Assembly: GCA_018715125.1 (NCBI GenBank)
Contig: DVMF01000079.1
Span: 1 to 38,398 of the forward strand
DNA: 38,398 bases
Reading direction: 5' to 3'
Source of the DNA: Candidatus Coprousia avicola
GTDB lineage: Bacteria; Actinomycetota; Coriobacteriia; Coriobacteriales; Coriobacteriaceae
Shown here: piece after piece, positions 2,240 through 31,133 of the stretch
How the letters are laid out: every line of letters starts with the position of its first letter
Numbering within the stretch: position 1 is the stretch's first letter
The notes under the pieces: model-generated
Told to the model about the DNA's origin: nothing
The model's input: the letters and a program-made list of their open reading frames with translations, nothing else
Databases searched by the model: none
Program-made: the position numbers and the translations under genes

Positions 2240-2560
2240 ATGGCAGATATCACGACGGTAACCGCCGAGTCCTTTGATGCCCTCATGACCGAGGAGCTGC
2301 CCGTCCTTATCGACTTCTGGGCACCGTGGTGCGGCCCGTGCCGCACGCTTTCCCCCATCGTCGACGAGCTGGCCGACGAGCTGGCCGGCCGTCTCAAGGT
2401 TGCCAAGTGCAACGTCGACGAGAACCAGGACCTCGCCATGAAGTTTGGCGTCATGTCCATCCCCACGCTCGTGGTGTTCAAGGGCGGCCAGGAGGTGGGC
2501 CGCACCGTGGGCGCCATGCCCAAGGCGCGCCTTGCCGCCGAGCTCGAGAACTACCTGTAA
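2240..2560 (+). CDS. trxA: Thioredoxin
   Basis: The 106-residue product has the thioredoxin active site WCGPC at residues 30-34 within the typical DFWAPWCGPCR context and the cis-proline segment SIPTLVVFKGG. Length and sequence are those of a single-domain TrxA, a cytoplasmic disulfide reductase re-reduced by thioredoxin reductase. The start is the ATG at 2240, preceded by GAGGAGGAAC; an open extension to 2141 has no ribosome site and overlaps the promoter. A hairpin follows at 2615-2650, so the gene is probably transcribed alone. With rubrerythrin and the Rrf2 regulator further along, it fits thiol and oxidative-stress housekeeping in an anaerobe. Confidence 0.97.
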   Translation: MADITTVTAESFDALMTEELPVLIDFWAPWCGPCRTLSPIVDELADELAGRLKVAKCNVDENQDLAMKFGVMSIPTLVVFKGGQEVGRTVGAMPKARLAAELENYL

Positions 2561-2614
2561 GCGCGGCGTCGGGCGGGATCGCGACTCCCCCGCCCGCGCT
2601 TGCGCCTCGCCTCT

Positions 2615-2650
2615 CGCCCCGGGCCCGCACCAATGCGGCCCGGGGCGTTT
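2615..2650 (+). terminator. Terminator hairpin after trxA
   Basis: GC-rich stem with CGCCCCGGGC on the left (from 2615) and GCCCGGGGCG on the right (ending 2647), with one bulged base and a short CAAT loop, followed by TTT at 2648-2650. The T run is short. Confidence 0.7.
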
Positions 2651-2693
2651 GCATATACGGCCTCTCACGGCATACACCGCCTGTTGATGATGC

Positions 2694-2702
2694 TGGTACA
2701 AT
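2694..2702 (+). promoter_or_regulatory. Extended -10 promoter for the 82-residue gene and nikR
   Basis: TGG-TACAAT at 2694-2702 fits an extended -10 element (TGn plus TACAAT). No good -35 box is present, which is tolerated for this promoter class. Confidence 0.5.
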
Positions 2703-2763
2703 CGGGACGACCACCTAAACTAAGCGCAGGGCAGCGAGACCCCGCCGTGTAAGGAGACGTACC

Positions 2764-3012
2764 ATGCATGACGTTGGAATGAACATGAGTCAGCTCGCCA
2801 TGAGTGTCAAGCAGGTAGACGACACCATCGCGCTTGCCCGCACGTGGAGCCACGACCTCTACCATGCCACCGAGGCCTTTGACATGCAGCGCATTGAGGA
2901 GAAGCTCAGCCGCGCCATGAAGGCGCTTGACGAGGCGCGCGAGGCGCTCGCCGGTTACGAGGACGCCATCGAGGCCGACCACAATTCCGTTGGCTCCGTG
3001 CGCCTGGTGTAG
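2764..3012 (+). CDS. Small protein of unknown function, coupled to nikR
   Basis: An 82-residue soluble protein beginning MHDVGMNMSQ, preceded by AAGGAGACGTACC. I do not recognise a family. The middle is strongly helical and charged (residues about 25-65, with EEKLSRAMKALDEAREAL), suggesting a short two-helix bundle or coiled coil. Histidines at positions 2, 30 and 34 and one near the C-terminus are few, so nickel binding is not evident from sequence. Its stop codon ends two bases before the nikR start, so the two genes are almost certainly cotranscribed and probably translationally coupled, which is the only clue to its role. Confidence 0.85.
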   Translation: MHDVGMNMSQLAMSVKQVDDTIALARTWSHDLYHATEAFDMQRIEEKLSRAMKALDEAREALAGYEDAIEADHNSVGSVRLV

Positions 3013-3014
3013 CC

Positions 3015-3458
3015 ATGGGAGCCCACGGCACCACAGGCGAACTTGCCCGCTTCTCCATCGCCATCCCGGCTGAGCTCCTTGCCGCTTTCGATGCGCAGAT
3101 CGCGCGCGCCGGAGGTCCCGCCAACCGGTCCGAGGCCATCCGCGACCTTATTCGCTCCTCGTTGGTGCAAAACGAGCTGCGCACACCGGATGCCGAGGTT
3201 ATCGGCTCGCTCACCATGATCTACGACCATCACACGGGAGACCTCACCCGCAAGCTGGACTCCGTGCAGCACGATTACACAGCCGAGATCGTCTCGACCA
3301 TGCACGTGCACCTCGACCACCACAACTGCCTGGAAATCCTCGCCCTCAAAGGGCGCGGCGAGCGCGTGTACGAGCTTGCCGACAAGCTGCTGGGCCTGCG
3401 CGGCGTTAAGCACGGCGAGCTCACGTGCGCCGCGACCGACAAGAGCTTGGGACGATAG
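3015..3458 (+). CDS. nikR: Nickel-responsive regulator NikR
   Basis: The 147-residue protein has an N-terminal ribbon-helix-helix DNA-binding region (RFSIAIPAELLAAFD, then NRSEAIRDLIRSSL) and a C-terminal ACT-like nickel sensor. The four nickel ligands known in E. coli NikR are conserved in spacing: His 86 in SVQHDY and His 97, His 99 and Cys 105 in MHVHLDHHNC. NikR normally represses nickel uptake genes when nickel is sufficient. I saw no GTATGA-type operator nearby, so its targets lie outside the window or use another sequence. The hyp genes about 7.5 kb away give it a plausible context, since hydrogenase assembly needs nickel. Confidence 0.95.
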   Translation: MGAHGTTGELARFSIAIPAELLAAFDAQIARAGGPANRSEAIRDLIRSSLVQNELRTPDAEVIGSLTMIYDHHTGDLTRKLDSVQHDYTAEIVSTMHVHLDHHNCLEILALKGRGERVYELADKLLGLRGVKHGELTCAATDKSLGR

Positions 3459-3514
3459 GTCGGCGATCCGCCCCAGATAACGACAAAATCGGCATGCTCG
3501 CTCTCGGGCCAACA

Positions 3515-3523
3515 TGCTATACT
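3515..3523 (+). promoter_or_regulatory. Extended -10 promoter upstream of locus 1
   Basis: TGC-TATACT at 3515-3523 is a near-consensus extended -10 element. Transcription would begin near 3530, about 100 bases before the GH4 start, and would first run through the hairpin at 3566-3589. Confidence 0.6.
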
Positions 3524-3565
3524 GCCCGTGTCACAAGAAGTGCATAGGTTACGTGCTCCGCGGTA

Positions 3566-3589
3566 CCCGGCGACCCGTCGGGATTTTTT
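3566..3589 (+). terminator. Terminator-like hairpin in the leader of locus 1
   Basis: CCCGGC (3566-3571), loop GACCC and GTCGGG (3577-3582) form a six-pair stem with one G-U pair, followed by A and six T residues at 3584-3589. It lies between the promoter at 3515-3523 and the GH4 ribosome site. It may end nikR transcription, end a short RNA of about 60 bases, or act as an attenuator of the alpha-glucoside operon. Confidence 0.65.
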
Positions 3590-3631
3590 CATGAAGCGAT
3601 ATCGGATATTTCCCTTGCAAAGGAGCACACC

Positions 3632-5023
3632 ATGATTATCACCCTTGCCGGCGGCGGCTCAACCTTCACGCCGGGCATCGTCAAGTCCATCGCGCTGCGC
3701 AAAGACGAACTCGAAGTGGACGAGATTCGCCTTTACGACATCAACGAGGAGCGCCAGCGCAAAATCGGCGTCCTCGTCGACTGGATCTTGCACCAGGACC
3801 TCGGACTCGACATCACCCTCACGGTCACCACTGACCCCGTAGTCGCCTTCACCGATGCGGACTTCATCTTCGCCCAGATGCGCGTGGGCGGCTACGCGAT
3901 GCGCGAGCAGGACGAGAAGATCCCGCTGCGCCACGGCTGCGTGGGCCAGGAGACCTGCGGTTGCGGCGGGCTTGCATACGGCATGCGCACCATCTTCCCC
4001 ATGGTCGAGCTCATCGACACCGTCGAGCGCTACGCCAAGCCAACGTATTGGATCTTGAACTACTCGAACCCGGCGGCCATCGTCTCCGAGGCGTGCCGTC
4101 GCCTGCGCCCCAACGCGCGCATCATCAACATCTGCGACATGCCCATCGCGATCATCGACGTGGTGGCCGCGGCGCTCGGCGTCAAGAAGCAGGACATCGC
4201 CTACGACTACTTCGGCCTCAACCACTTCGGCTGGTTCACCTCGATTGAGGTGAACGGCCACGAAGCGCTGCCCGAGCTTCGCGCCTACATCAAGGAGCAC
4301 GAGATCCTCATGCCCGAGGCGTTCCTCAAGGACAAGGCGGCGCTCATCAAGTCCGCGGCAAGCACCGAGCAGCAGGCCGACGGCGACCAGCCCGAGCAGA
4401 ACCGCCACACCAAGGGCAGCTGGTACTACGTGTGGAAGGGCGTCTACGAGATCATGGAGCTCTTTCCCGAGTACTTGCCGAACACCTATCTCAACTACTA
4501 CCTGCAACAGAAGGAGTTCGTCGAGCACTCCGACCCCACCCATACCCGCGCGAACGAGGTCGAGGAGACGCGCGAGCGCAATCTCTTCGACGGCATCGAC
4601 CGTTACGAGCGCACGGGCGAGATCGATGAGAGCGTGTTCTACGCCGGCAGCCACGGCGACTGGATCGCCGACCTCGCCATCGCGCTCAAGAACGATACCA
4701 AGGCGCGCTTCCTCGTGATCACCCAGAACCGCGGCGCGCTCCCCAACATGCCCTACGACGCCATGGTCGAGGTGCCCGCATACATAGGCAAGAAGGGCCC
4801 CGAGGTCATCGCGCAGGATCCGATCCCGCTCTTCCAGCAGGGCCTCATGATGCAGCAGCTCAACAGTGAGAAGTTGCTGGTGGAGGGCGCTATCGAGGGA
4901 TCGTACGAGAAGGTGCTCCAGGCCTTCGCGCTCAACAAGACCGTACCGTCCATCAAGGTTGCCAAGGAGATCTTGGACGACATGATCGAGGCCAATAAGG
5001 ACTTCTGGCCCGAGCTCAAGTAA
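3632..5023 (+). CDS. GH4 6-phospho-alpha-glucosidase (locus 1, first copy)
   Basis: A 463-residue glycoside hydrolase family 4 enzyme. The Rossmann motif GGGSTFTPG (residues 7-15) binds NAD+, NYSNPAA lies at 143-149, and the metal ligands are Cys 168 in NICDMP and His 198 in GLNHFGW. In GH4 the CDMP form marks 6-phospho-alpha-glucosidases, as against CNVP in the beta enzymes. These enzymes use NAD+ and Mn2+ in an oxidation-elimination mechanism to give glucose 6-phosphate. The ATG at 3632 follows AAAGGAGCACACC. Compared with GlvA it has an extra charged segment around residues 225-255 (KSAASTEQQADGDQ), and it is more distant from the other three GH4 proteins here, so its substrate may differ. 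It precedes an EIICB gene. Confidence 0.93.
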   Translation: MIITLAGGGSTFTPGIVKSIALRKDELEVDEIRLYDINEERQRKIGVLVDWILHQDLGLDITLTVTTDPVVAFTDADFIFAQMRVGGYAMREQDEKIPLRHGCVGQETCGCGGLAYGMRTIFPMVELIDTVERYAKPTYWILNYSNPAAIVSEACRRLRPNARIINICDMPIAIIDVVAAALGVKKQDIAYDYFGLNHFGWFTSIEVNGHEALPELRAYIKEHEILMPEAFLKDKAALIKSAASTEQQADGDQPEQNRHTKGSWYYVWKGVYEIMELFPEYLPNTYLNYYLQQKEFVEHSDPTHTRANEVEETRERNLFDGIDRYERTGEIDESVFYAGSHGDWIADLAIALKNDTKARFLVITQNRGALPNMPYDAMVEVPAYIGKKGPEVIAQDPIPLFQQGLMMQQLNSEKLLVEGAIEGSYEKVLQAFALNKTVPSIKVAKEILDDMIEANKDFWPELK

Positions 5024-7248: not shown

Positions 7249-8604
7249 ATGGACGAGAACAAGCGGTTCCGCATCTGCATCGTGGGAGGCGGTTCGCGCT
7301 ACACGCCCGGCATCTTGAAGATGCTCGTGGCCGAACAGGAGCGCTTCCCCATCTCGACGATCGTGCTCTACGACAACGAGTACGAGCGCCAGGCACGCGT
7401 GGCCGAGTACGGCCGCATCCTCATGCGCGAGTACTACCCGGCGTGCGAGGTCGTGGACACCTGCGACCCCGAGGAAGCCTTCACCGGCATCGACTTCGCC
7501 TTCATGCAGATCCGCGCCGGGCGCATGAAGATGCGCGAGCAGGACGAGAAGATCGCCCTCAAGCACGGCTGCATCGGCCAGGAGACCTGCGGCGCGGGCG
7601 GCTTCGCCTACGGCATGCGCTCGGTCCCCGCCGTGTGCGACATCATCAAGGACATTCGTAAGTACTCCCCCGAGGCCTGGGTCCTCAACTACTCCAACCC
7701 CGCGGCCATCGTGGCCGAGGCCACGAAGCGCGTCTTCCCCGGCGACTTCCGCATCATCAACATCTGCGACATGCCAGTGGGCATCATGACCATGTACGCC
7801 CGCGCGCTCGGCCTCCCCGCGAACCGGCTCGAGGCTCGGTACTTCGGCCTCAACCACTACGGGTGGTTCACCGCGGTGCTCGACAAGGAGACCGGTGAGG
7901 ACTACCTGCCGCGCCTCAAGAAGCTCTTCTCTACCCCGCCCGAGGAGCTGGAGCGCGTGGGCCATGAGGTCGACGCCAGCTGGGCCGAGACCTTCCGCTT
8001 CATGTCCAAGATAGTCCGCGAGTGCGGCGAGCACTTCATGCCCAACACCTACCTGCAGTACTACCTGTACCCCAAGCACATGCTGGCGCAGGAGAACCCC
8101 GAGTACACCCGCGCCAACGAGGTCATGGACGGGCACGAGAAGCGCACCTTCGAGATGATCGACGAGGTCATCGCCGCGGGCGCGCTCAAGGGCACGAAGC
8201 ACGAACCCACCGATCGAGACTTCCTGGACGGCCACGCCACCTACATCGTCGACCTAGCCTACGCCATCTCGCACAACACGCACGACATCTTCCTCTGCAT
8301 GACCGAGAACCACGGCATCATCTCGAACTTCTCCGAGGGTGCCATGGTCGAGGTGCCCGTGATGGTCGGCTCGCGCGGCGTCGAGCCCCTCAACGTGGGC
8401 GAGATCCCCACGTTCCAGAAGGGCCTGCTCGAGAACCAGTTCGCCTACGAGAAGCTCACCGTGGACGCCTGCCTCGAGGGCAGCTACGAGAAGGCATGGA
8501 ACGCGCTCACGCTCAACCGCTGCGTGAACGACACCGAGACCGCCAAGGCCCTGCTCGATGACTACATCGAGGCCAACAAGGGCTACTGGCCGGAGCTGCA
8601 CTAG
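7249..8604 (+). CDS. GH4 6-phospho-alpha-glucosidase (locus 1, second copy)
   Basis: A 451-residue GH4 enzyme with the NAD motif GGGSRYTPG (from about residue 13), NYSNPAA near 147-153, the metal cysteine Cys 173 in NICDMP and the metal His 203 in GLNHYGW. The CDMP signature again predicts action on 6-phospho-alpha-glucosides. The NAD loop reads SRY rather than the STF seen in the other three copies, which may shift substrate or cofactor details. An open extension to 7165 exists, but AAAGGAGTCACC directly before the ATG at 7249 decides the start. It follows the EIICB gene by 216 bases and is closed by a strong terminator. Confidence 0.93.
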   Translation: MDENKRFRICIVGGGSRYTPGILKMLVAEQERFPISTIVLYDNEYERQARVAEYGRILMREYYPACEVVDTCDPEEAFTGIDFAFMQIRAGRMKMREQDEKIALKHGCIGQETCGAGGFAYGMRSVPAVCDIIKDIRKYSPEAWVLNYSNPAAIVAEATKRVFPGDFRIINICDMPVGIMTMYARALGLPANRLEARYFGLNHYGWFTAVLDKETGEDYLPRLKKLFSTPPEELERVGHEVDASWAETFRFMSKIVRECGEHFMPNTYLQYYLYPKHMLAQENPEYTRANEVMDGHEKRTFEMIDEVIAAGALKGTKHEPTDRDFLDGHATYIVDLAYAISHNTHDIFLCMTENHGIISNFSEGAMVEVPVMVGSRGVEPLNVGEIPTFQKGLLENQFAYEKLTVDACLEGSYEKAWNALTLNRCVNDTETAKALLDDYIEANKGYWPELH

Positions 8605-17357: not shown

Positions 17358-17957
17358 TTACGCGCTCAGGCGCCAACTGGCAAATGCGCAGATCAGGCCG
17401 ATGGCAAGCACCGCGAGGGCGCCCGATATGTCCACGAGCACGCCGCCGACGCCGCGGCGCTCGCGCCACTCGGTGAGCTCGCCTTGTGTCTTGCCCCACA
17501 TGCGCCACAAGATGAGGGCAAAGCCCGCAAGACCCACCACGTTCTGCAGGAAGGCCTCGGCGCAGAGAAGGCCGATGAGGTTGCCCACGGCATAGCCGCC
17601 GTCGCCGTCAGCGTAATGGCGGTATGCGAAGCGCAAGATCCACGCCGCCAGCGGCTGCGCCATGGCAGCGATGAAGCTCACCACAAACCCGGGGTCGGCG
17701 CGCATGGCCTCCTCGAGACCCGTGCCGGAAAACGAGGAGTACCCCAAGAGGGCGAACGGGAAGATGACGAGCACGACCTGCACCGTGGTGACGATGCGCT
17801 TCGTCAGGCGCTCGCGCGGCGTGTCGAGGTTGCGCGCGCTCCGCTTAGCGGCGAGCGCGCGTTCCGACCGGGCGGCCTCGCGCGCCTCAAGCTCTTCGGG
17901 CGTGCGCTCGCGGCGGGCGGCGGCCTTCTGCGCCGGCGTCATCTTCTTCTTGCTCAT
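17358..17957 (-). CDS. Membrane protein of unknown function with GntR-type operator
   Basis: A 199-residue protein. Residues 1-55 are cytoplasmic and very basic and helical (KKKMTPAQKAAARRERTPEEL), followed by four predicted spans near 56-73, 91-112, 122-151 and 172-195. I do not recognise a family. The ATG at 17957 follows AAAGGGG. The predicted promoter carries a 14-base palindrome identical to one of the operators before the locus-3 glv genes, which suggests the same GntR protein controls it and hence a role linked to alpha-glucoside use, perhaps as an accessory membrane factor. It converges on the HAD gene with only seven bases between. Confidence 0.8.
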   Translation of the reverse strand: MSKKKMTPAQKAAARRERTPEELEAREAARSERALAAKRSARNLDTPRERLTKRIVTTVQVVLVIFPFALLGYSSFSGTGLEEAMRADPGFVVSFIAAMAQPLAAWILRFAYRHYADGDGGYAVGNLIGLLCAEAFLQNVVGLAGFALILWRMWGKTQGELTEWRERRGVGGVLVDISGALAVLAIGLICAFASWRLSA

Positions 17958-17978
17958 GGCAACCCCTTTGGCTCTTAA

Positions 17979-18001
17979 CTTGTTCGTACATGTTGAGTAT
18001 A
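17979..18001 (-). promoter_or_regulatory. Promoter with GntR-type operator
   Basis: On the minus strand a TATACT -10 box (18001-17996) is followed by the palindrome at 17979-17992 (CTTGTTCGTACATG on the plus strand), which would cover the transcription start. The plus-strand 16-mer starting at 17979 (CTTGTTCGTACATGTT) is identical to that starting at 30192. Confidence 0.75.
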
Positions 18002-18280: not shown

Positions 18281-19633
<1,353 letters not shown>

Positions 19634-19757
19634 CTAACACGGTGCCGCACCTTGCAGGCCCGCTGCGACCTGCGGCATGGCCGCAGCGGGATGGTACCTA
19701 GCGATCGGCGCGCTCAGCTGAGGCCGGGGCTTGCGCGCGTAGGCTCCGGCAGGCGAC

Positions 19758-21350
19758 TTACTTGAGCAGCTGCTCAAAGGCGTCGCGAACCTTGGGAACC
19801 GACAGGCCGATGATGACCTGCATGTTCTTGCCGTTCTTGGCGATGCCGTGCGCGCCGATGGCGCGGAAGTTAGCATCGTCGGCAACGAGCGTCTCGTCCT
19901 TGACGTTCACACGCAGACGCGTGGCGCAGTTGGTGACGTCGACGACGTTCTCGGTGCCACCCAGAAGATCGAGGATGTTCTGCGCAAAGATCGCGCGCTC
20001 CTCGGCCTTGCTGCCCGCGACCTCCTTGGAGGCGGCGGCGCCGCCCTGGGCTGCCTTGTAGTCGGCCTTGGACTTGAGGGAAACCTCGACGTCATCGTCC
20101 TCGCGACCCGGGGTCTTGAAGTCGAACTTCAGGATGAGGAAGCGGAAGACCACGACCCAGATGGCGCTGAACACAAGACCGATGCCGATGGAGAGCAGGT
20201 ACTGGCCGGCATACACGGCGCCGAGCGGCAGGAAGTCCCACGAAGCCATGGAGATGAGGCCGCCGTCGAAGATGCCCACCGTGCCCACGAGGTTCTGCAC
20301 CATGCAGAGCGTGGCGCCGAGAACCGAGTGGACGACAAAGAGCTGCGGTGCGATGAACAGGAACGTGAAGTCGAGGGGCTCGGTGATGCCGCAGAGCATG
20401 GCGGTGAGACCGACCGGGATGAGGAGGGTCTTGGTCTCCATGCGGCGCTCGGGCTTAGCCGTAAGGTAGAAGGCGATGCAGACGCCGAGCGAACCGAAGA
20501 CCTTCGTCCAGCCGGGGCAGGTGTAGGCAGCCCACGGAGCAGCCTCGGCGAGCGGCTCGCCAGAAGCGGCGAGCGTCGGCAGGATGGTGGCCCACTGCGG
20601 GTAGATGCCGCCGGAGACGGCCGCATCCGCATAGTAGAACGGCGAGTAGATGAAGTGATGGAGGCCGGTGGGGATGAGGATGCGCTCGAGGAACGCAAAG
20701 ACCCATACGCCCGCGGCGCCCGTGGACAGGATGAAGCCCTGGAAGAGCTGGATGCCGTGCTGGATCGGCGGCCACACCGCACATGCGACGATGGCGCAGG
20801 GCAGCATCACGAAGAACGACACGGCGTACACGAAGACCGATCCGCCGAAGACGCCGAGCCAATCGGGCAGCTCGGTGTCGAAGAACTTGTTGTGGAGCAT
20901 CACGGAGACGCCGGAGATGATGAGCGCGCCCATCATGCCCATGTCGAGCGTCTTGATGCTCGCGATGGTGGCGAGTCCGGTGCCGCTGGCAGCCTCGACG
21001 GAGAAGTCCACGCCAAAGACGCCGCCCCACTGCGACAGGATGGTGTTAACGAAGTAGTTGAACGTGAGGTACGCCGCGAGCGCCTCCATGCAGGCGCGGG
21101 CCTGCTGATGCGTGGCGAGCGAGATGGGCAGCGACACGCAGAACAGAAGCGGCATCTGGTTGAAGAGCGTCCAGCCGCCCTGCAGCAGCACGTTCCAGCA
21201 GTCGTACCAGGGGTTGCCGGCAGTTGCCATGGCCCCGAAGATCGCCTCGGTGGTGAAGAGCGTGCCCAGGCCGACCACGATGCCCGAGAAGGCAAAGAGG
21301 ATGGCCGGGGTGTACATCGCACCACCGAACTTTTGGATTTTCTGCATCAT
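19758..21350 (-). CDS. glvC: PTS maltose/alpha-glucoside transporter EIICB, GlvC-like (locus 2)
   Basis: A 530-residue permease closely following Bacillus GlvC (MalP): MMQKIQKFGGAMYTP at the start, GGWTLFNQMPLLF, SIKTLDMGMMGA, LERILIPTGLHHFIYSPF, GITEPLDFTFLFIAP and FRFLILKFDFKTPGRE at the EIIC end. The EIIB domain has the phosphocysteine Cys 475 in TNCATRLRVNV. No EIIA domain is attached. An open frame runs back to 21497, but the AGGGAGG site before 21350 and the family N-terminus fix the start. It should import and phosphorylate maltose or a related alpha-glucoside for the GH4 enzyme encoded 133 bases downstream. Confidence 0.95.
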   Translation of the reverse strand: MMQKIQKFGGAMYTPAILFAFSGIVVGLGTLFTTEAIFGAMATAGNPWYDCWNVLLQGGWTLFNQMPLLFCVSLPISLATHQQARACMEALAAYLTFNYFVNTILSQWGGVFGVDFSVEAASGTGLATIASIKTLDMGMMGALIISGVSVMLHNKFFDTELPDWLGVFGGSVFVYAVSFFVMLPCAIVACAVWPPIQHGIQLFQGFILSTGAAGVWVFAFLERILIPTGLHHFIYSPFYYADAAVSGGIYPQWATILPTLAASGEPLAEAAPWAAYTCPGWTKVFGSLGVCIAFYLTAKPERRMETKTLLIPVGLTAMLCGITEPLDFTFLFIAPQLFVVHSVLGATLCMVQNLVGTVGIFDGGLISMASWDFLPLGAVYAGQYLLSIGIGLVFSAIWVVVFRFLILKFDFKTPGREDDDVEVSLKSKADYKAAQGGAAASKEVAGSKAEERAIFAQNILDLLGGTENVVDVTNCATRLRVNVKDETLVADDANFRAIGAHGIAKNGKNMQVIIGLSVPKVRDAFEQLLK

Positions 21351-21485
21351 GACAGAGAACCTCCCTTTCTCCCCGCGAGGGCACCAACCGAAGCGCCCCC
21401 GCGCGGTGCAGGTCTGAATCCATAAGCAGAAGGCGCGACGCGCCGGCTCGCGCACCTCCCCCTTGGGCGCCATAATACTCTCTGT

Positions 21486-21518
21486 TTGTCTAGACAACCT
21501 TATACCTGTCTAGACAAG
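21486..21518 (-). promoter_or_regulatory. Paired GntR operators around the glv promoter (locus 2)
   Basis: TTGTCTAGACAA at 21486-21497 is a perfect palindrome, and a second site, CTGTCTAGACAAG at 21506-21518, has its centre exactly 20 bases away, two helical turns. The minus-strand -10 candidate TATAAG (21504-21499) lies between them. The form is that of HutC/TreR-type GntR operators. Confidence 0.85.
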
Positions 21519-21706
21519 CGATAAACGGTAGGAATTCGCCGGTGAACGGTCGGCCTTACTACCATCCACCTGGCTACTATACGGATTCTTGCCTTTCTAC
21601 CTGCGTTTTATGCAAGTTGCCTCATTTCTTGTCAGATGCACGGGACGCAGCTGCATCGAGATTCCACTCAACGACTTTCGTCGTTCTATCAAAGTTTATA
21701 TCTCAT
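21519..21706. other. Divergent control region of locus 2
   Basis: AT-rich compared with the rest of the window and without a gene. It separates the glv operators (21486-21518) from the dehydrogenase promoter (21707-21736) and may bind further regulators, such as CcpA-like or activator proteins; I saw no clear cre site. Confidence 0.4.
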
Positions 21707-21736
21707 CTTGACTAGACAAGTTGAATTGCTTACCCT
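21707..21736 (+). promoter_or_regulatory. Dehydrogenase promoter with GntR operator over -35
   Basis: TTGACT at 21708-21713 and TACCCT at 21731-21736 are 17 bases apart. The -35 lies inside CTTGACTAGACAAG (21707-21720), a one-mismatch relative of the glv operators, so the same regulator should block both directions. Confidence 0.75.
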
Positions 21737-23028: not shown

Positions 23029-23757
23029 ATGTCTAAATCCGTCTATCAAGATATCTATGCCGACATGCAGCAGGCCATCGAACACGGCGATTACCCCTAC
23101 CAGTCGTATCTGCCCTCTGAGAACGAGCTCAAGGAGCTTTTCGGCTGCTCACGCACGACGGTGCGTCGCGCGCTCGCGGCGCTTGCCGCCGAGGGGTACG
23201 TCCAGCCGCAGCAGGGGCGCGGTGTGCGCGTCATTCGCGATGTCACCAAGCAACCGCCCCGCGGCGTGGACGGTCTCGAGACGTTCAAGGAGATCGCCGC
23301 GCGGCGCGGCTTCTCCCTCGTCACCCGCGTCAGCGTCTTCGAGATGCTCACTGCCGACGAGGCCCTCTCCTCCGTCACCGGGTTTCCCGTGGGCAGCGAC
23401 CTCACGCGCGTGAAGCGCATTCGTCACGCCGACGGGGTTGCCGTGGGCAGCGACGACAGCTACTACCTGAGCTCGACCGTACTGGGCCTCACGCCGCAGA
23501 TCGCCGAGGACTCCATCTACCGCTATCTGGAGGAGGACCTCGGCATCAAGATCGGCTCGGGCACGCGCGACGTGACCGTTGAGCACCCCACCAAAGAGGA
23601 CCTGCGCTGTCTCGACTTGGGCGACTTCGATAGTCTTGCCGTCGTGCGCGGCAAGACCTACCGCATCGACGGCACCCTCATGGAGTACACCGAGACCAAA
23701 CAGGTGCCGTCGTTCTTCGCCCTGCACGAGACCGTGCTGCGCTCCCGCGTCCGCTGA
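23029..23757 (+). CDS. GntR family (HutC/TreR-type) regulator of locus 2
   Basis: A 242-residue regulator with an N-terminal winged helix-turn-helix (YLPSENELKELFGCSRTTVRRALAALAAEGYVQPQQGRGVRV) and a C-terminal UTRA ligand domain (about residues 80-240), which in this subgroup binds phosphosugars or similar effectors. B. subtilis TreR, a relative, binds palindromes with TTGT/ACAA arms, matching the sites seen upstream. The natural effector may be the 6-phospho-disaccharide. ATG at 23029 has only a weak site; the open extension to 22921 overlaps the promoter. It is about half identical by eye to the locus-3 regulator, with changes in the recognition helix (CSRTTVRRA against CSRSSIRRA). Confidence 0.93.
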   Translation: MSKSVYQDIYADMQQAIEHGDYPYQSYLPSENELKELFGCSRTTVRRALAALAAEGYVQPQQGRGVRVIRDVTKQPPRGVDGLETFKEIAARRGFSLVTRVSVFEMLTADEALSSVTGFPVGSDLTRVKRIRHADGVAVGSDDSYYLSSTVLGLTPQIAEDSIYRYLEEDLGIKIGSGTRDVTVEHPTKEDLRCLDLGDFDSLAVVRGKTYRIDGTLMEYTETKQVPSFFALHETVLRSRVR

Positions 23758-26917: not shown

Positions 26918-28273
<1,356 letters not shown>

Positions 28274-28440: not shown

Positions 28441-30027
28441 CTACATGAGTTTCTCGAACTCGTCACGGGCCTTGGCGACCTTGAGGCCGATGATGATCTG
28501 GACGGACTTGCCGCGCTTCATGCAGCCGCTCGTGCCGATGGACTTGAAGTCGGCGTCGTCGGCGACCTTCGTCTCGTCCTTGACGTTCAGGCGCAGACGG
28601 GTCACGCAGTTCGTCACGTCCACGATGTTGTCGGGACCACCGACGAGCTCCATGCAGGCAGCGGCGGTGACGGCGTAGGGGTTCTCAGCCTCGGCGGCGT
28701 CGAGCGCAACCGTGCCGTCGCCCTGCTTGGCCGCACGGTACTCGGCCTTGCTGCGGAACTTGATCTCCTCGTCATCCTCGCGACCAGGGGTCTTGAAGTC
28801 GAACTTCAGGATGAGGAAGCGGAACACCACGAACCAGATGAAGGTGAAGACCAGGCCGACACCAAGACCCATGACGTAGGTCATCCAGTGGTTCGCCCAC
28901 AGCGGGATGAGGTTCAGGCTGGCGATCTCGATGAGGCCGCCGGAGAACACGCCCACGACACCGACCGCGTTCATGGCGACGGCAAGGGTTGCCGCGAGGG
29001 CGGCGTGCACGACGAAGAGCATCGGCGCGATGAAGAGGAACGTGAACTCGATGGGCTCCGTCACGCCGCAGAAGATGGCGGTCAGCGTGATGGGGATGAG
29101 CAAGCCAAGCAGCTCCTGGCGCTTCTCGGGCTTAGCCGTGAAGTAGAAGGCGAGCGCGATACCCGGGCAACCGAACATCTTGGACCAGGTGGTGCAGGTG
29201 AAGGCCGCATACGGGGCAAGCTCGGTGAGGGGCTTGGGGGAAGCGGCGATCTCGGGCAGCTGCGTGGCGAAGGCCGCGTAGATGCCGCCGTTCACCACGG
29301 CGTTGTCATAGTAGAACGGGCTGTAGAGCAGGTGGTGCAGGCCGAACGGAATGAGGGCGCGCTCGAGGAACGCGAAGATCCACACACCCGGCAGGCCCAC
29401 GGTCGAGACGAACACCTGGAAGGCGCGGATGCCGTCCTGGACGTGCGGCCAGACGAGGCAGGCGATGAGCGCGGTCGGCAGCATGACGAAGAACGCGACC
29501 ATGTAGACGAAGGTCGAGCCCGAGAACACGCCGAGCCACTCGGGCAGCTCCGTGTCGTAGAGCTTGTTGTGGAGCGCGATGACGATGCCGGAGATGGCAA
29601 GGGCGCCGATCATGCCCATGTCGAGCGTCTTGATGCTCGCGACCATGGCAAGACCCGAGGTGCCGCCGGTCTCGGCGCTGAAGTCTACGCCAAAGACGCC
29701 GCCCCACTGGGAGAGCATGGTGGACACGAAGTAGTTGAAGGTGAGGTAGGCAACGAGCACTTCCATGCAGCAACGGGCGTTCTGCTTATTGGCGAGGCCA
29801 ATAGGAAGCGACACGGCGAACAGCAGCGGAAGCTGGTTGAAGACGGTCCAACCGCCTTGCAGGATGACGTTCCACACGCCGTACCAGAGCGTGTCGGGCG
29901 CCGCGAGCGGGCCAAAGATTACCTCAGTGGTAAACAGCGTGCCGAGGCCGATGACCACGCCGGCGAATGCAAACAGCAGCACGGGCGTGAACATGGCTCC
30001 GCCGAATTTTTGGATTTTCTGCATCAT
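28441..30027 (-). CDS. glvC: PTS maltose/alpha-glucoside transporter EIICB, GlvC-like (locus 3)
   Basis: A 528-residue EIICB that parallels the locus-2 protein from MMQKIQKFGGAMFTP to the C-terminus, but is clearly more diverged than the GH4 pair. EIIC landmarks are GGWTVFNQLPLLF, SIKTLDMGMIGA, LERALIPFGLHHLLYSPF (PF where locus 2 has PT), GVTEPIEFTFLFIAP and FRFLILKFDFKTPGRE. The phosphocysteine is Cys 474 in TNCVTRLRLNV. No EIIA domain. The change from ILIPTGLHH to ALIPFGLHH falls in a sugar-binding loop and supports a different substrate. The start at 30027 follows AAAGGGGATT; the open extension to 30150 crosses operator DNA. Confidence 0.95.
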   Translation of the reverse strand: MMQKIQKFGGAMFTPVLLFAFAGVVIGLGTLFTTEVIFGPLAAPDTLWYGVWNVILQGGWTVFNQLPLLFAVSLPIGLANKQNARCCMEVLVAYLTFNYFVSTMLSQWGGVFGVDFSAETGGTSGLAMVASIKTLDMGMIGALAISGIVIALHNKLYDTELPEWLGVFSGSTFVYMVAFFVMLPTALIACLVWPHVQDGIRAFQVFVSTVGLPGVWIFAFLERALIPFGLHHLLYSPFYYDNAVVNGGIYAAFATQLPEIAASPKPLTELAPYAAFTCTTWSKMFGCPGIALAFYFTAKPEKRQELLGLLIPITLTAIFCGVTEPIEFTFLFIAPMLFVVHAALAATLAVAMNAVGVVGVFSGGLIEIASLNLIPLWANHWMTYVMGLGVGLVFTFIWFVVFRFLILKFDFKTPGREDDEEIKFRSKAEYRAAKQGDGTVALDAAEAENPYAVTAAACMELVGGPDNIVDVTNCVTRLRLNVKDETKVADDADFKSIGTSGCMKRGKSVQIIIGLKVAKARDEFEKLM

Positions 30028-30137: not shown

Positions 30138-30205
30138 CTTGTCCGTACAAGTTATGATGCCATAATGCTCTTCTTGTACGTACAAGTCAATCTTGTTCGT
30201 ACATG
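30138..30205 (-). promoter_or_regulatory. glv promoter with three GntR operators (locus 3)
   Basis: Three palindromes on the plus strand are CTTGTCCGTACAAG (30138-30151), CTTGTACGTACAAG (30173-30186, perfect) and CTTGTTCGTACATG (30192-30205). On the minus strand TTGACT (30190-30185) and CATTAT (30167-30162) form a promoter with a 17-base spacer. One operator lies in the spacer, one upstream of the -35 and one after the start of transcription. Confidence 0.88.
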
Positions 30206-30380
30206 TTTTTCACATCTCCGGCAAACGGCGTGTTTTGCCCGGCGAACGGTTTTCTACGGCCCCGCGGGGGGGATCCCGCGCGGGACGGCACGCCGAAGCA
30301 GCGCGCAAGACGAACGTCCCATCGCGGTTTACGCACCGCACGCGCCATTTGACACCGCCCCGCCGTTGCTCCACACTCAC

Positions 30381-30399
30381 TATAAGTTGTACGTACAGG
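30381..30399 (+). promoter_or_regulatory. GntR operator over the regulator's own start (locus 3)
   Basis: TATAAG (30381-30386) is a -10 candidate and is directly followed by TTGTACGTACAGG (30387-30399), which runs into the AGGAGG ribosome site. Binding here would block transcription of the regulator. A TTGACA at 30349-30354 is too far (26 bases) to pair with this -10. Confidence 0.65.
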
Positions 30400-30407
30400 A
30401 GGACCTC

Positions 30408-31133
30408 ATGCCTAAAGCCGTCTTTATGGACATCTATCACGACCTGCGCGAGAACATCGAAGATGGCACGTATGGCTACCAGTCGTTTTTGCCCTCCGAA
30501 GCGGAGCTCACCCAGCTCTTCAACTGCTCGCGCAGCTCGATCCGCCGTGCGCTCGGCATGCTCGCCCAAGACGGATACGTGCAGGCGCAGCAGGGCAAGG
30601 GCGTGCGCGTCATACGCAACCCCACCATCGTCAACCCCGCGGGCTACAACGGCCTCGAGACCTTCAACGAGCTCGCGCGGCGGCGCGGCTTTGTGGGCGG
30701 TACGCAGGTCCTCGTCTGCGAGGAGCTCACCGCCGGCGACGCACTCGCCGCGCAGACGGGCTTTGAGGCCGGCAGCCGCCTTGCCCATATCTTGAGGGCC
30801 CGCACGGCGGACGGCCGCGCCATCTCCACCGACGAGAGCTATTACCTCGCCAGCGAGGTGCCCGGCCTCACACCCGAGATCGTGAAGAAGTCCGTGTACG
30901 AGTATCTCGAAGGGGTGCTCGGCATCAAAATCGCCACCGCCCGCCGCATCATCACCATCGAGGCCGCCACTGAAGCCGATGAGCGCAACATCGACCTCGA
31001 CGGGTTCAACGCGGTGGGTGTCATGCGGTCGCACACCTTTGACGCCGACGGCATCATGATCGAGTACACCGAATCGCGCCAGCGACCCGGCTTCTTCTCC
31101 TACAACGAGACCGCTGTGCGCCCCGTGCACTAA
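30408..31133 (+). CDS. GntR family (HutC/TreR-type) regulator of locus 3
   Basis: A 241-residue regulator with a winged helix-turn-helix (FLPSEAELTQLFNCSRSSIRRALGMLAQDGYVQAQQGKGVRVI) and a UTRA domain, clearly paralogous to the locus-2 regulator across the full length, including the shared GLETFNELARRRGF-type linker. It is divergent from the glv pair and surrounded by TTGTACGTACAA-type sites, which are probably its operators. The ATG at 30408 follows AGGAGGACCTC; the open extension to 30075 crosses the operators and is not used. Ligand is presumably a phosphorylated alpha-glucoside or its product. Confidence 0.93.
   Translation: MPKAVFMDIYHDLRENIEDGTYGYQSFLPSEAELTQLFNCSRSSIRRALGMLAQDGYVQAQQGKGVRVIRNPTIVNPAGYNGLETFNELARRRGFVGGTQVLVCEELTAGDALAAQTGFEAGSRLAHILRARTADGRAISTDESYYLASEVPGLTPEIVKKSVYEYLEGVLGIKIATARRIITIEAATEADERNIDLDGFNAVGVMRSHTFDADGIMIEYTESRQRPGFFSYNETAVRPVH

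Follow-up and report, generated by a model that had tools for sequence, protein, structure and literature searches.

A conserved operator-like site before a membrane-protein gene and its probable membership in an alpha-glucoside regulon of a gut bacterium related to Collinsella

In the 38,398-nucleotide stretch of DNA that was analyzed here (the window), which comes from a gut bacterium related to Collinsella, a membrane-protein gene is preceded by a sequence that recurs in the promoter region of an alpha-glucoside operon. This raises the question whether the gene belongs to the regulon of the regulator that is encoded beside this operon, as the first-pass annotation had proposed. The gene and the elements in front of it are:

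17358–17957, minus strand: membrane-protein gene (199 amino acids), an open reading frame with the RBS-like sequence AAAGGGG, one plausible start and a basic, charged N-terminal part.
17977–17994, no strand assigned: putative operator AACTTGTTCGTACATGTT, an imperfect palindrome with a GT-N4-AC core, kept before the same gene in four other genomes (G002, G010, G012, G042).
17996–18001, minus strand: −10 box TATACT (AGTATA on the plus strand), kept in five genomes of three genera.

A pattern search found the 16-mer CTTGTTCGTACATGTT in exact copies at 17979–17994 and 30192–30207, about 12 kb apart. No third exact copy was present anywhere in the 2.42-Mb genome, and the next-best match, C36:30502, had two mismatches; the claimed identity over 16 bases thus held exactly, for these two copies only. 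On the minus strand the layout is TATACT-C-AACATGTACGAACAAGT-TAAGAGCCAAAGGGGTTGCC-ATG, with the ATG being the start of the gene 17358–17957. The operator AACATGTACGAACAAGT starts one base past TATACT, confirming its described position directly after the −10 box, and 20 bases lie between its end and the ATG at 17957. A pattern scan before the gene revealed neither a consensus −35 box nor a full sigma-70 promoter; the −10 box is good and a −35 box is not recognizable.

The second copy lies in locus 3, which comprises the following features:

26918–28261, minus strand: GH4_3, a GH4 6-phospho-alpha-glucosidase gene (PF02056/PF11975).
28441–30027, minus strand: PTS3, an alpha-glucoside-specific PTS IIBC gene (TIGR02005, 688.5 bits versus a cut-off of 607.3).
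30138–30207, no strand assigned: three operators, recognized by motif, in the promoter region of the PTS gene, at 30138, 30173 and 30192.
30386–30399, no strand assigned: a weaker operator (20.3 bits) before the start codon of REG3.
30408–31133, plus strand: REG3, a GntR/UTRA regulator (HutC-type, TreR-like; PF00392 and PF07702) and the likely reader of the site, with the same operator type beside its orthologues.

Both domains of the HutC subfamily were found in REG3, an N-terminal GntR winged helix (PF00392, 61.6 bits) and a C-terminal UTRA domain (PF07702, 98.3 bits), while its score against the TreR equivalog TIGR02404 was below the cut-off (174.6 versus 211.95 bits). The best solved relatives of GH4_3 are 6dux and 1u8x, a 6-phospho-alpha-glucosidase and a maltose-6'-phosphate glucosidase. 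Because PTS3 scored above the cut-off for alpha-glucoside IIBC proteins and GH4_3 is closest to 6-phospho-alpha-glucosidases, the designation "alpha-glucoside regulon" is supported. The window contains four GH4 genes altogether (3623–5017, 7261–8601, 18281–19624 and 26918–28261), the last two of which are 88–89% identical.

The motif was described with a symmetrized matrix built from 58 sites in the regulator/PTS intergenic regions of orthologous loci in 18 other genomes. These training sites had been found with the pattern CTTGTNCGNACAAG, allowing up to two mismatches, and the operator type that this pattern search yielded beside the orthologous regulators of the 18 loci, TTGT-NCGN-ACAA, also occurs in the window. 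With this matrix, which contains no site from the genome of the window, the site at 17977 scored 30.9 bits and ranked first in the window. It outscored the PTS3 operon's own operators; it was followed by the sites at 30190 (29.4 bits), 30171 (26.8), 30136 (22.5) and 30384 (20.3), after which the next score dropped to 11.5 bits. The exact identity behind the label "locus-3 operator copy" is with one of the four sites of this kind near the locus-3 promoters.

Further sites were seen elsewhere in the same genome (G000). The one at C36:30502 (L019, about 4003–4020) is a 30-bit operator that overlaps a TATACT before a gene which we take to encode a Cof-like HAD phosphatase, and the one at C23:21631 (L020, about 4030) is a 29.5-bit operator upstream of a presumed GH13 alpha-amylase-family gene (2321–3916, minus strand). 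Both gene names come from reading the sequences by eye and are not a database result. The two sites fit a sugar regulon, and the phosphatase gene is probably a further member. A site at C84:2012 was rejected, as it lies behind and not before a permease-like gene.

Between the membrane-protein gene and the locus-3 operon lies a second locus with a related regulator:

18281–21425, minus strand: the locus-2 cassette, with PTS2 (19758–21425) and GH4_2 (18281–19624).
21485–21720, no strand assigned: locus-2 operators at 21485, 21505 and 21707, which are TTGTCTAGACAA-like and of a different type from those of locus 3.
23029–23745, plus strand: REG2, a paralogous GntR/UTRA regulator, 53% identical to REG3, with the recognition helix CSRTT instead of CSRSS.

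The distribution of the gene was compared across 65 genomes of the family, the counts of which are not phylogenetically independent. A relative of the membrane protein is present in 38 of them. The class of the gene that is linked to the PTS was found in the same 24 genomes as a REG3 orthologue; neither gene occurred without the other, and both were missing from the remaining 41. In 23 of the 24 genomes the two genes share a contig and are no more than about 13 kb apart; only G007 has them on separate contigs, and its membrane-protein gene is at the end of one. Most often REG3 comes first, followed by the divergent PTS3, then by GH4_3 and finally by the membrane-protein gene. In the other 14 genomes the relative is more distantly related (37–40% identical), and in the two of these that were examined more widely it was not near such a locus. 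Eight loci from a second family of the order were read as well, and six of them showed a REG3-like gene, PTS3, GH4 and the membrane-protein gene in this order, one of the six with broken PTS and GH4 frames. Of the remaining two, one had no regulator nearby, and the other had PTS3 directly followed by the gene. In G001, the genome of which has no close PTS3 or GH4_3, the gene still adjoins REG3, and in five other genomes read, no membrane-protein gene was found beside REG2-type loci with TTGTCTAGACAA-type sites. From its linkage to REG3, PTS3 and GH4_3 in two families, its retention in G001 and its absence beside REG2-type loci, the gene can be assigned to locus 3. Its place behind GH4_2 is most readily explained by a locus-2 cassette lying between GH4_3 and the gene. 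The description of the gene as distant is correct for the spacing of the two copies; very likely, though, it once belonged to the locus-3 region, from which the locus-2 cassette now separates it.

The −10 box and the operator form one block, TATACTNAACATGTACGAACAAGT (TATACT-N-AACATGTACGAACAAGT), which was found in five places in the 65 family genomes, even when three mismatches were allowed. The carriers, G000 and G002, G010 and G012, and G042, represent three genera, and the block always precedes an orthologue of 17358–17957. Between the genera 23–24 of the 24 bases are identical; the flanks are unalignable, with 14–15 of 50 identical bases upstream and 3–5 of 20 downstream, no better than random, and 20 to 65 bases separate the block from the ATG. 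The proteins encoded behind the block are 56–99% identical to the window protein (56–58% in G010, G012 and G042, which also have an additional operator, in most cases a weaker one, immediately upstream of the −10 box). Conservation before this gene in relatives, whose absence the first-pass annotation had listed among the refuting findings, was thus verified. The putative regulon membership of the gene is supported by the conserved block together with the standing linkage to the regulator/PTS/GH4 locus in two families.

In three genomes of the same genus (G003, G006 and G007) the gene is kept and the site before it is absent; in G003 and G006, the two in which the contigs show the position, it lies behind GH4_2. 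In these three genomes the gene may have passed to locus-2 control. In most linked genomes no operator of the gene's own was found, and there the regulon membership rests on the position behind the operon, with co-transcription assumed. The gene of the window might likewise be transcribed mainly by read-through from PTS2-GH4_2 under the control of REG2, with the operator left as a relic or marking an additional promoter of minor importance. It is on the same strand as GH4_2 and begins 323 bases behind it, no terminator was recognized between the two, and G003 and G006 have it behind GH4_2 without any locus-3 operator. Nevertheless this is unlikely, because the site shows no decay, being the best-scoring one in the window and part of a block that is kept across genera, and because locus-2-type loci elsewhere are devoid of the gene.

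The operators of the HutC subfamily are palindromic, with GT and AC four bases apart (PMC4494728), and both operator types of the window obey this GT-N4-AC rule. The center of the REG3 operator is NCGN, compared with MTAK in the HutC consensus (PMC4494728). While REG3 goes with TTGT-NCGN-ACAA, the REG2 cassette has TTGTCTAGACAA-like sites, and the promoter region of a paralogue on contig C73 has CTTATCTGAATAAG-like sites. The recognition helices of REG3 and REG2 differ accordingly: that of REG3 is CSRSS in the window and in the majority of the 20 REG3-type sequences that were compared, three of which have CSRST, and that of REG2 is CSRTT in the genus of the window and CSRMT in a further REG2 group. 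Regulators of G019, G038, G044, G046 and G047 (55–56% identical) were rejected as REG3 orthologues, since their loci are of the REG2 type. That one of the other GntR/UTRA regulators (REG2 at 23029, or those on C73 or C11) reads the site at 17977–17994 could be suspected from the 43–53% identity of these paralogues to REG3 and from the outer half-sites TTGT/ACAA, which are common to the REG2 and REG3 operator types, but the different sites at the REG2 cassette and in the C73 promoter region and the differing recognition helices make it quite improbable. A chance resemblance can practically be dismissed: low-scoring short palindromes of such a kind do arise by chance, but four matches to the CTTGTTCGTACATGTT pattern with up to three mismatches were seen in the window versus 0.05 expected from shuffles of it, first-order random sequence of genome size (2.42 Mb) gave one match of at least 20 bits as opposed to the 30.9 bits of the site, and the site is conserved across three genera.

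It is therefore very probable that 17977–17994 is a true operator of REG3 (30408–31133), and that the gene 17358–17957 is repressed by REG3, released by sugar together with PTS3-GH4_3 and kept in its old regulon. The site itself, the motif to which it belongs, its conservation and the linkage of the genes were observed and suggest the following model for binding, direction of control, inducer and order of evolutionary events. Without inducer, a REG3 dimer would occupy AACATGTACGAACAAGTT, close behind the −10 box, and would thereby cover the transcription start and block RNA polymerase. An alpha-glucoside would enter through the PTS, and a sugar, perhaps as its phosphate, would bind to the UTRA domain; sugar-bound REG3 would then free the membrane-protein promoter and, with it, the PTS3-GH4_3 operon. 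In the ancestral arrangement, the gene would have been located right behind GH4_3, and with the locus-2 cassette now in between it would stay in the old regulon by virtue of its own promoter and operator.

Several known systems resemble this arrangement. TreR of Bacillus subtilis regulates a PTS/phospho-alpha-glucosidase operon. It belongs to the HutC subfamily of the GntR family, has a UTRA domain (PDB 2ogg, the closest solved UTRA relative of REG3) and is like REG3 in domain order and in its palindromic operators, while REG3 is below the TreR equivalog cut-off and the hydrolase of its operon belongs to GH4. REG3 would work like TreR, but is not filed as TreR. The GH4 6-phospho-alpha-glucosidase/alpha-glucoside PTS operons of the GlvA/AglB type (TIGR02005) have the same enzyme and transporter families as locus 3, which differs by its GntR/UTRA regulator and by a fourth gene, encoding the unnamed membrane protein. 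To our knowledge, the known operons of this type lack such a fourth gene. Among the papers that were searched, none combined Collinsella with 6-phospho-alpha-glucosidase. The HutC-subfamily repressors YvoA/NagR and DasR are like REG3 in domain architecture and in the GT-N4-AC rule; unlike the REG3 locus, the regulons of DasR and NagR are amino-sugar regulons (PMC4494728).

The membrane protein has four hydropathy peaks (residues 55–73, 90–108, 131–150 and 173–191), and the predicted structure (pLDDT 84.6) contains six longer helices (47–76, 89–116, 120–137, 140–157, 160–176 and 178–198). Across 29 relatives there is no variation at Gln101-Pro102, Asn126 and Glu134, all of which fall into predicted helices. 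The window protein had no Pfam or NCBIfam match above the curated cut-off, and comparing the 29-member alignment and the relatives with Pfam, NCBIfam and PDB sequences gave scattered weak matches only. With the model, Foldseek found no match at E 0.001 or better, and the best VIA-align Z score, 9.4, was to soluble helical proteins and within the chance range for helical bundles. The protein matches neither a named family nor a known fold with confidence. The gene order points to an accessory role for the PTS; more tentatively, the protein could be a dedicated alpha-glucoside PTS accessory of Coriobacteriales from an undescribed family, for example a IIBC modulator or an exporter of released sugar.

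Further features were seen at loci of relatives. The gene is present in two tandem copies in three genomes (L071, L076 and L067), and in L072 (G009) and L066 (G001) its immediate upstream neighbor is a pyridoxamine-oxidase/NimA-like gene, a name assigned by eye. In L083:6743–7527 (G062) the N-terminal 183 residues of GH4_3 are joined directly to the C-terminal 91 of the membrane protein, due to a genomic deletion or an assembly fault. In the second family, the membrane-protein gene is succeeded at L090:9193–9696 by an EIIA-Glc-like gene, likewise named by eye, and the PTS IIBC of this locus is without an EIIA domain of its own.

Taken together, an unnamed membrane-protein family can probably be placed in a defined sugar regulon of gut bacteria, and this offers a starting point for finding its function. 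The gene appears to have kept its regulator via the operator after another PTS-GH4 cassette came in between, and the two paralogous regulators side by side, with distinct operators, are a tractable case of specificity divergence.
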